Assembly (NCBI RefSeq): GCF_011393335.1
Contig: NZ_CP049865.1
Location: forward strand, 1,382,722-1,446,721
DNA length: 64,000 nt
Reading direction: 5' to 3'
DNA from: Propioniciclava coleopterorum
Lineage (GTDB): Bacteria; Actinomycetota; Actinomycetes; Propionibacteriales; Propionibacteriaceae
Part shown: piece after piece, positions 24,152-25,441 of the stretch
How the letters are laid out: every line of letters starts with the position of its first letter
How positions within the stretch are numbered: the first letter of the stretch is position 1
Notes under the pieces: generated by a model
What the model saw: only the letters and a program-made list of their open reading frames with translations
Told to the model about the DNA's origin: nothing
Database searches by the model: none
Program-made: the position numbers and the translations under genes

Positions 24152-24291
24152 GTTCCTTCGGGTGGTGGTGGTCGACGGTGCTCGTCGCCCGACAACACGT
24201 CCGCGGACGCCTGTGGTGCTCGACGACCGCGGCGCGTTCGGGCGGAACGGGCGGTCAGGCAGGTGTTGTCAGGCCCTGGGGCGACAACACC
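24152..24291 (-). promoter_or_regulatory. candidate cysteine-responsive attenuator upstream of cysK
   Basis: Read leftward, three related segments occur in order: segment 1 at 24291-24283 (GGTGTTGTC), segment 2 at 24270-24262 (GACAACACC) and segment 3 at 24198-24191 (GTGTTGTC). Segment 2 can pair perfectly with segment 1 or, over 8 bases, with segment 3, but not both. Segment 1 overlaps the Cys codons of the leader peptide. The 3' side of segment 3 (GTTGTCGGG, 24196-24188) can in turn pair with the cysK ribosome-site region CCCGAAGGAAC (24162-24152). Ribosome stalling at Cys codons would free segment 2 to hold segment 3 and expose the cysK start. Confidence 0.6.
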
Positions 24292-24346
24292 GACACATCA
24301 CGTGGGCAGCGGCGCGCGCGGCGCCGATCCCCGATGCGTTGGTCAT
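24269..24346 (-). CDS. 25-residue leader peptide with Cys-Arg-Cys-Cys
   Basis: A short frame from ATG at 24346 to TGA at 24271-24269, 121 bases upstream of cysK. Cysteines occupy residues 18, 20 and 21 (MCRCCRPRA end), a rare density that fits a cysteine-sensing leader of the kind described upstream of sulfur genes in mycobacteria. The stop codon falls at the edge of the hairpin segment that the attenuator needs. A TAGCGT -10 element with a TG extension lies 7 bases before the ATG, so the transcript probably starts at or next to the ATG (leaderless). No protein function is expected. Confidence 0.65.
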
Positions 24347-24353
24347 GGTGTGG

Positions 24354-24362
24354 ACGCTAGCA
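24354..24362 (-). promoter_or_regulatory. extended -10 promoter of the cysK leader
   Basis: TGCTAGCGT (leftward) places a TANNNT -10 seven bases upstream of the leader-peptide ATG, the spacing typical of leaderless actinobacterial transcripts. No clear -35 is needed or seen. Confidence 0.5.
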
Positions 24363-24391: not shown

Positions 24392-25441
24392 TCAGCGGGT
24401 GGGCCGCGCTTCCGCCTCCGGGACGGCACCGGTCGGGTCCACAAGGGGCCGCCCGCCGCTGGACTCGCGGACCGTCAGGCGCCAGCCGGCGCGGTGCCGC
24501 ACCGGTTCGGCACCCGGCTCGAGCACCGCGCGCAGCGCGAGCTGGGCGATCTCGGCGCGGTCGGGCGCGATGGTGGTGAGGGTGGGGTTGGACGCGCGGC
24601 CGTAGGGGATGTCGTCGTAGCCGGCGACGGCCACGTCCTCGGGGATGCGCAGCCCCGCGCGCTGCAGGCTCCGGATCACTCCGAGCGCGAGCCAGTCGGT
24701 GACGCAGAACACGGCGTCCGGCACCGGCCGCATCGCGGCGATCCGGCGTCCGGCCGCGACCCCGTCGTCGCCGCTGACGCCGGGCGTCGCCACCTCGAGG
24801 TCCGGCGCCGGCCGCGCCCCCCGGGCCTCGTGGGCCCGCGCCCAGCCGTGCCGTCGACCGCCGAGATGGTGGTTGCCCCCGACGATCGCGACCCGACGCG
24901 CACCCGCGTCCAGGAGGTGCCCGGTGACCGCCTCGGCGGCGGCGACCTGATCGATCGCCACCGAGGGGACCGCGACGTGCCAGTCCTGATCGCCGAGCAG
25001 CACCAGGGGCAGGTTCGACCGCCGCTTCGCGACGTCCTCGTCTGTGAGGGTGATCGCGCTCAGCACGATCCCGTCGATCCGCTGGCCGAATCGCCCCTCC
25101 AGCGCCCGCAGTTCGACCTCGCGCGAGCCGTGGGTCTGCTGGACGACCACGACGGTGCCCGCGTCCTCCGCCTTCTCCAGCATCTGCTGCGCCAGCGAGG
25201 CGAAGTACGGCATCTCCAGGCGCGGCACCACCAGCGCGATCAGGCCGGTCCTGCCGCTGGCCAGGTTGCGGGCCTGCAGGTTCGGGCGGTAGCCGAGTTC
25301 GGCGATCGCGCGTTCGACGCGCTCGCGCATCGCGTCGGAGACGTGCGGGTAGTCGTTCACCACGTTGGAGACCGTGCGCATCGACACGCCGGCCAACTCC
25401 GCCACATCGACCAGGCGCGGTGGTCTGCTGCGTGCGGTCAC
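24392..25441 (-). CDS. LacI-family transcriptional regulator
   Basis: A 349-residue repressor. The N-terminal helix-turn-helix (RLVDVAELAGVSMRTVSNVVNDYPHVS) and hinge (LGYRPNLQARNLASGRTGLIALVVP) are followed by the periplasmic-binding-type sugar-sensing domain. That domain contains VAIVGGNHHLGGRRHGW and VAVAGYDDIPYGRASNPTLTTI. It is the last gene of the leftward sulfatase/ABC-transporter cluster, and a perfect 16-bp palindrome in front of the sulfatase is its likely operator. The inducer is presumably the imported sugar. Start is GTG. Confidence 0.9.
   Translation of the reverse strand: MTARSRPPRLVDVAELAGVSMRTVSNVVNDYPHVSDAMRERVERAIAELGYRPNLQARNLASGRTGLIALVVPRLEMPYFASLAQQMLEKAEDAGTVVVVQQTHGSREVELRALEGRFGQRIDGIVLSAITLTDEDVAKRRSNLPLVLLGDQDWHVAVPSVAIDQVAAAEAVTGHLLDAGARRVAIVGGNHHLGGRRHGWARAHEARGARPAPDLEVATPGVSGDDGVAAGRRIAAMRPVPDAVFCVTDWLALGVIRSLQRAGLRIPEDVAVAGYDDIPYGRASNPTLTTIAPDRAEIAQLALRAVLEPGAEPVRHRAGWRLTVRESSGGRPLVDPTGAVPEAEARPTR

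Follow-up and report, generated by a model that had tools for sequence, protein, structure and literature searches.

On the minus strand of the window, the stretch of 64,000 nucleotides of the Propioniciclava coleopterorum genome analysed here, a gene for cysteine synthase A (cysK) is preceded by a short ORF with cysteine codons crowded near its stop. This leader was described in the initial annotation as a leaderless-looking frame of 25 codons with Cys at codons 18, 20 and 21, and it is indeed found there, each of the three cysteines being encoded by TGT; by contrast, in the 43 window genes that a GC3 rule predicts, the Cys codons are 7 TGT and 119 TGC. The features of the locus are as follows.

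24359-24354, minus strand: -10 element TAGCGT (TANNNT type), 7 nt 5′ of the leader ATG, a leaderless-type promoter
24346-24269, minus strand: leader ORF, 25 codons plus a TGA stop, from the sequence and its ORF translation
24159-24153, minus strand: Shine-Dalgarno sequence of cysK, GAAGGAA
23212-24147, minus strand: cysK, cysteine synthase A (profile match to TIGR01139), with an ATG start

A TAGCGT motif 7 nt before the ATG, with no Shine-Dalgarno-like site seen in a scan of the region before it, is at the sequence level the signature of leaderless translation, so that the Cys-rich ORF would start in the same way as the polycysteine ORFs of mycobacteria. Its position before a gene of cysteine biosynthesis is the one expected of an amino-acid attenuator. 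Directly upstream of the leader there is a LacI-family regulator gene (24392-25441, minus strand), apparently unrelated to sulfur, and beyond it follow genes that look by eye like those of ABC transporters. In the genome that contains the window, searches found no PAPS-reductase domain (PF01507) and no sulfite-reductase domain (PF01077), and therefore cysK may depend on sulfide supplied from elsewhere.

The end of the leader and the RNA that follows it contain the elements of a structured switch.

24290-24188, minus strand: whole element according to the covariance model R1 (82.5 bits, E 3.3e-12; one of the seven training members of the model)
24290-24282, minus strand: segment 1, GTGTTGTCG, spanning Cys codons 20-21 and reaching into Arg22
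24273-24263, minus strand: segment 2, CCTGACAACAC, including the leader stop TGA (24271-24269)
24256-24249, minus strand: 5′ strand (a) of the inner hairpin P2, GACCGCCC, from RNAalifold and covariation
24232-24225, minus strand: strand b, partner of either a (P2) or c (P3)
24206-24201, minus strand: strand c, CCGCGG, partner of strand b
24198-24188, minus strand: segment 3, GTGTTGTCGGG, a second copy of segment 1, from the sequence and covariation
24243-24187, minus strand: candidate OFF hairpin, in which 24243-24233 and 24232-24227 pair with 24206-24187; it takes in segment 3 and has no U-tract
24133-24124, minus strand: possible segment 4, CGACAACGCC, inside cysK at +15 to +24, a potential partner of segment 1 or segment 3, and not general

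The three segments are present as had been described, with segment 1 over the Cys codons and the leader stop inside segment 2. Taken alone, the 1:2 pairing of the window gave p=0.03 against shuffled sequences. A joint score for the 1:2, 2:3 and segment 3:cysK-start pairings, devised after the segments had been seen and calculated for the window and for the genome G034, was not reached once when the intergenic region was shuffled 10,000 times (observed 22.5, best shuffle 22.0). In G034, whose counterpart leader is MTNASGADAVSAVFPLMCRCCRHQA, segments 1, 2 and 3 are identical to those of the window, against 63% identity in leader codons 7-16 and 59% in the spacer after segment 3; identity within the cysK part carries little weight, because the cysK start (93%) and leader codons 1-6 (94%) are also conserved. 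The fold of the whole leader is not unusual when compared with shuffles (z of -1.2) and the z of the 2:3 domain ranges from -1.4 to -3.8 in the seven elements described below, so that the stability of single sequences is not our main evidence.

That evidence comes from relatives. A pattern made of segments 1 and 2 only, searched in 114 genomes of the family, gave 11 matches in 10 genomes, and a reversed control pattern gave none. Seven of the matches carry the third segment, absent from the pattern, 59-70 nt further on, and in all seven there is a Cys leader whose TGA opens the matched part of segment 2; the other four (L199, L200, L205, L206) are not elements. Three of the seven have the segment set GTGTTGTCG/TGACAACAC/GTGTTGTCG and four the set GTGCTGTCG/TGACAGCAC/GTGCTGTCG, segment 3 ending differently in two of the latter. 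With T/A/T in three elements and C/G/C in four, one base has therefore changed in all three segments together. When the seven are aligned with MAFFT, RNAalifold predicts the 2:3 stem together with the inner hairpin P2, and covariation reaches 0.326 vs 0.180 in shuffled alignments, none of 500 of which attain the observed value, and at most 0.105 when slid; a simple count of pair types shows no excess over shuffles in these seven (402/500).

The covariance model R1, built from the seven elements and run against 198 family genomes at E up to 0.1, returned 23 matches, 16 of which are new, in 21 genomes. Each of the 23 overlaps a Cys-rich leader; a leaderless -10 is visible in 22, and in 20 the leader TGA occupies the aligned column. 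Once the 23 elements are fitted to the model, 91.6% of the cells are paired and 12 of the 20 pairs have changed on both sides, with a covariation score that none of 500 shuffles reaches; the number of further pair types is not above shuffles in this set (27/500). Judged from N-terminal sequences, the gene that follows is cysK in 3 cases, an NlpA lipoprotein gene in 11 and a DUF4395-type gene in 9 (that of L220 assigned by eye, from its first codons), and Pfam, applied to seven of the 20 non-cysK genes, agreed in each (PF03180 in five, PF14340 in two). Sequence comparison establishes the leader, the segments, the covarying 2:3 stem and P2, and their recurrence before sulfur genes. An exchange of segment 2 between segments 1 and 3, already suggested for the window, is supported because the 2:3 stem and the inner hairpin covary and the element recurs on Cys-rich leaders.

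An order-wide search (391 genomes, E up to 0.01) found matches in 14 genomes, every one of them from the same family. A second model, R2, built from the 23 elements, gave 35 matches in 28 genomes, of which 30 in 25 genomes were confirmed as Cys-leader elements, namely the 23 of R1 plus L230, L231, L233, L237, L239, L232 and L241; the matches L234, L235, L236, L238 and L240 are not Cys-leader elements. Among the additions, L241 (G024) and L232 (G119) are, one, before an NlpA-like lipoprotein gene (by eye) and, the other, near a contig end. The genome of the window has a second element, outside the window (G000:C1:34050-34165), before an NlpA lipoprotein gene and with the leader MGQLISAANAVMMMPMCCRRMPA. 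Leaders of NlpA genes (L229, L209, L214, L228, L215) are often Met-rich besides Cys-rich (e.g. MMMPMCCRRM), and may sense both sulfur amino acids. In G030, where the element precedes a DUF4395-type gene, cysK lies ~1.1 kb further on. Relatives on plasmids gave no match, and no Rfam family (riboswitches, T-box) matched above its gathering score, the three chance-level hits falling off the element.

Partition-function folds of the 23 elements were calculated with no ribosome, with segment 1 covered and with segment 2 covered. Without a ribosome, 1:2 exceeds a probability of 0.5 in 15 of 23 (mean 0.55, shuffled 0.07), and 2:3 already wins in six (L214, L228, L225, L209, L221, L222). With segment 1 covered, 2:3 is above 0.5 in 18 (mean 0.74, shuffled 0.04) and stays below it in L213, L210, L220, L223 and L226. 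With segment 2 covered, segment 3 pairs with an upstream strand above 0.5 in 19 (mean 0.63, shuffled also high, 0.41), and when 20 of the elements are folded in groups, this pairing forms a long hairpin in most groups. The expectation that blocking segment 1 frees segment 2 for segment 3 is therefore borne out in most of the elements and not in the window, where the equilibrium probability of 2:3 with segment 1 covered is 0.01, vs 0.88 in G034. In longer folds of the window, forcing the 2:3 pairing costs 0.4 kcal/mol relative to the free fold when the ribosome is on the last Cys (the masks differing by 3 nt) and 4.0 kcal/mol when it is on the first. Covariation and folding over the 23 elements thus agree on mutually exclusive helices set by the position of the ribosome, and the window itself is, in these models, a weak case for the switch.

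Cysteine leaders before cysK are more widespread than this element. We looked for frames of 8-40 codons, within 350 nt, with at least 3 Cys in their last 18 residues, at 88 cysK-like loci of the family drawn from a longer list (two more had no start that could be found), and compared them with groups of other loci defined after an earlier look at them. In the own family, 19 of 88 loci have such a frame (shuffles: mean 3.3, maximum 9 in 40 sets; reverse strand: 1), as do 17 of 22 Cellulomonas/Promicromonospora/Demequina-like loci, a post hoc group (0.7 in shuffles), 0 of 44 other actinobacterial loci (0.8) and 1 of 14 from other phyla (0.7). Sixteen own-family leaders, 15 of the 19 picked by hand (without L092, L121, L184 and L186) plus L116, with in-frame starts set by eye, contain 49 TGT and 21 TGC codons, and in 15 of these 16 a TANNNT stands 6-7 nt ahead of the start, vs 5 of 486 other ATGs. 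Among 17 leaders outside the family, TANNNT occurs in none and a Shine-Dalgarno-like site in 12. The 1:2 pairing is not significant across all Cys leaders (p=0.10 for the 16 of the family, p=0.88 for the 17 from Micrococcales), and we rejected it as a general trait of Cys leaders before cysK, among which the three-segment element is one of several designs. A terminator scan of 33 Cys-leader cysK loci found a hairpin followed by six T in L142 and L171 and by five T in L123; the G034 locus, L083, gave a marginal hit whose T runs do not exceed 2. The terminator of L171 is predicted to be disrupted when the ribosome sits on the first Cys. With T-run hairpins after the leaders of L142, L171 and L123, Cys leaders of the family can therefore work through termination.

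These observations, together with the models, make it likely that the element is a ribosome-mediated, cysteine-responsive attenuator before cysK. The RNA would start at the leader AUG. With ample Cys-tRNA, the ribosome would run to the UGA and cover segment 2, leaving segment 3 to join the preceding strands in the long hairpin (a′/b with c/3), the OFF state. When cysteine is scarce, the ribosome would stall at the Cys codons and cover segment 1, 2:3 and the inner hairpin P2 would form, the OFF hairpin would be blocked and cysK expressed, whereas without any translation 1:2 would form, again an OFF state. The stop codon is suitably placed for this exchange: a ribosome that completes the leader would cover segment 2, and a Cys-stalled one segment 1 only. 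We infer the RNA start, the stalling, the direction of the effect and the OFF hairpin as the repressing form, and we place the repressing step at this level because the hairpin has no U-tract in the window and the window is a weak case. By analogy with the relatives that have terminators after their Cys leaders, the output is most likely premature transcription termination at a hairpin without a U-tract, with translational masking as the main alternative; in the predicted folds, the long hairpin using segment 3 is a commoner OFF candidate than masking of the cysK start. The terminator scan of the window found no intrinsic terminator with a U-tract before cysK, as a classical transcription attenuator would have. 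A broader reading, possible though tentative, is that of an unlisted class of cis-regulatory RNAs of Propionibacteriaceae with a sulfur regulon (cysK, an NlpA/MetQ-type importer and a DUF4395-type gene with cysK near by), opposing a U-tract-less terminator hairpin to an antihairpin, and with an NlpA branch that maybe senses Met and Cys.

The initial annotation had segment 3 masking the ribosome site of cysK. This is not supported as proposed: the Shine-Dalgarno sequence is not a partner of segment 3, whose complement lies at cysK +15 to +24, beyond the start codon. In the window and in G034, codons 5-8 of cysK offer segment 3 a possible partner, and a free segment 3 could in this way block initiation, as in a translational attenuator. 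The joint geometry score given above favours that possibility, and so do folds that take in 60 nt of cysK while segment 2 is covered, where segment 3 pairs with cysK +14 to +22 at ~0.8 in the window and 0.6-0.7 in G034; mycobacterial Cys leaders are, moreover, described as translation attenuators in passages of PMC13236596. However, over 22 elements (L225 being left out, its ATG not found) there is no excess of complementarity between segment 3 and the gene start (combined p=0.96; window 0.076, G034 0.043). The Shine-Dalgarno of the window is about equally unpaired in both states (0.60 with segment 2 covered, 0.39-0.46 with 2:3 formed), and a complementarity to segment 3 as good as this is found in 6 of 171 cysK starts, including those of the window and G034 (shuffle p 0.034). 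The predicted accessibility of the ribosome binding site does not change consistently between states in seven elements either. We rejected masking of this site as a general OFF step on the 22-element and accessibility results, and regard a translational attenuator at the cysK start as rather unlikely.

Termination by Rho in the untranslated RNA beyond the leader stop, which a stalled ribosome would prevent, would suit a window from which an intrinsic terminator is absent, but Rho prefers unstructured C-rich RNA, and this stretch is highly structured and conserved. Such a mechanism was proposed in 2005 for the cys leaders of mycobacteria and P. acnes (PMC1262725); for the present element we judge it unlikely, if less so than the two explanations that dispense with an RNA switch altogether. 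According to one of these, only the Cys-codon leader matters, through reinitiation or coupling, with the RNA structure no more than incidental. Most of the Cys leaders that precede cysK in other genera fail the pairing tests, which would agree with this view, although one of these tests skipped 13 of 33 loci (long gaps) and missed L141, later matched by the model as L222. The covarying stems of 23 elements, and segments that stay identical between the window and G034 while the adjoining stretches diverge, make it improbable. According to the other, the near-perfect inverted repeat GGTGTTGTC...GACAACACC acts at the DNA level, as an operator bound by a regulator, an idea to which the LacI-type gene directly upstream lends some appeal. 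Yet the exact repeat occurs only once in the genome (exact copies being sought), and the segments covary and keep, in relatives, their frame with the Cys codons and the stop codon, which leaves an operator hardly credible. The ribosome-mediated attenuator is thus our preferred explanation.

Classical attenuators of the trp/his/ilv type are built on a 1:2 pairing, a 2:3 pairing and a competing hairpin, with a stop codon placed to cover segment 2. The element of the window shares all of these traits, and differs in a candidate OFF hairpin without a U-tract, in the position of the 5′ arm of that hairpin between segments 2 and 3, and in its leaderless start. Leader peptides with Cys runs were predicted in 2005 before cys operons of Mycobacterium and P. 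acnes and before cbs in B. longum; in the portion of the report consulted, conserved hairpins are not reported and Rho is suggested (PMC1262725). Like the leader of the window, these have Cys codons near the stop and a terminator hairpin was not found, but the covarying stems set the present element apart. Mycobacterial Cys leaders were seen by ribosome profiling in 2015, cysA2 and nirA being among the genes named (PMC4633059), and leaderless polycysteine ORFs were tested in 2020 (Canestrari et al., as cited in PMC9031893, PMC13236596 and PMC9094748). The latter are also leaderless Cys-rich leaders upstream of sulfur genes, cysteine-responsive in their case, and in the citing passages, through which the comparison is made, a conserved three-segment structure is not found described. 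The uORFC-8-2 motif before cysS of Rhodobacterales, as presented in extracts of its report, likewise has Cys codons in a stem and a proposed ribosome-mediated attenuation, but its U-run fits an intrinsic terminator, and both gene and phylum are others (PMC8632094).

The suggestion that such a switch was undescribed in this lineage is therefore to be divided. Cys leader peptides as such are already known, that of Propionibacterium acnes having been predicted in 2005 (PMC1262725), whereas for the covarying three-segment switch no description was found in the open-licence papers searched. This switch provides a covariation-supported structure for actinobacterial Cys leader peptides, whose mechanism was left open in 2005, as well as a compact set of natural variants for testing, and it raises the testable question of whether, in high-GC bacteria, termination at attenuator hairpins can do without a U-tract.

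Other loci deserve a brief mention. Very Cys-rich leaders precede cysK in the Micrococcales loci L017, L028, L038, L042, L073 and others, and the three-segment geometry was not found in those Micrococcales loci that were tested. L142 (G092) and L171 (G109), from another genus, have a Cys leader before cysK and then a classical GC hairpin with six T. L156 (G006) is a Cys-rich short ORF ending in MCRCCRCQRCMSSAN, ~300 nt before a URO-D family gene, and in L154 and L155 (G064 and G100) frames ending in CGTMCRCCR* coincide with the beginning of what looks by eye like an argS region, which may be a chance overlap. In several genomes of the same genus (L084, L085, L086 and L190), the nearest cysK comes after a TusA-like small gene (by eye), with no Cys leader close by, and three of these genomes (G082, G093 and G110) have a second cysK.
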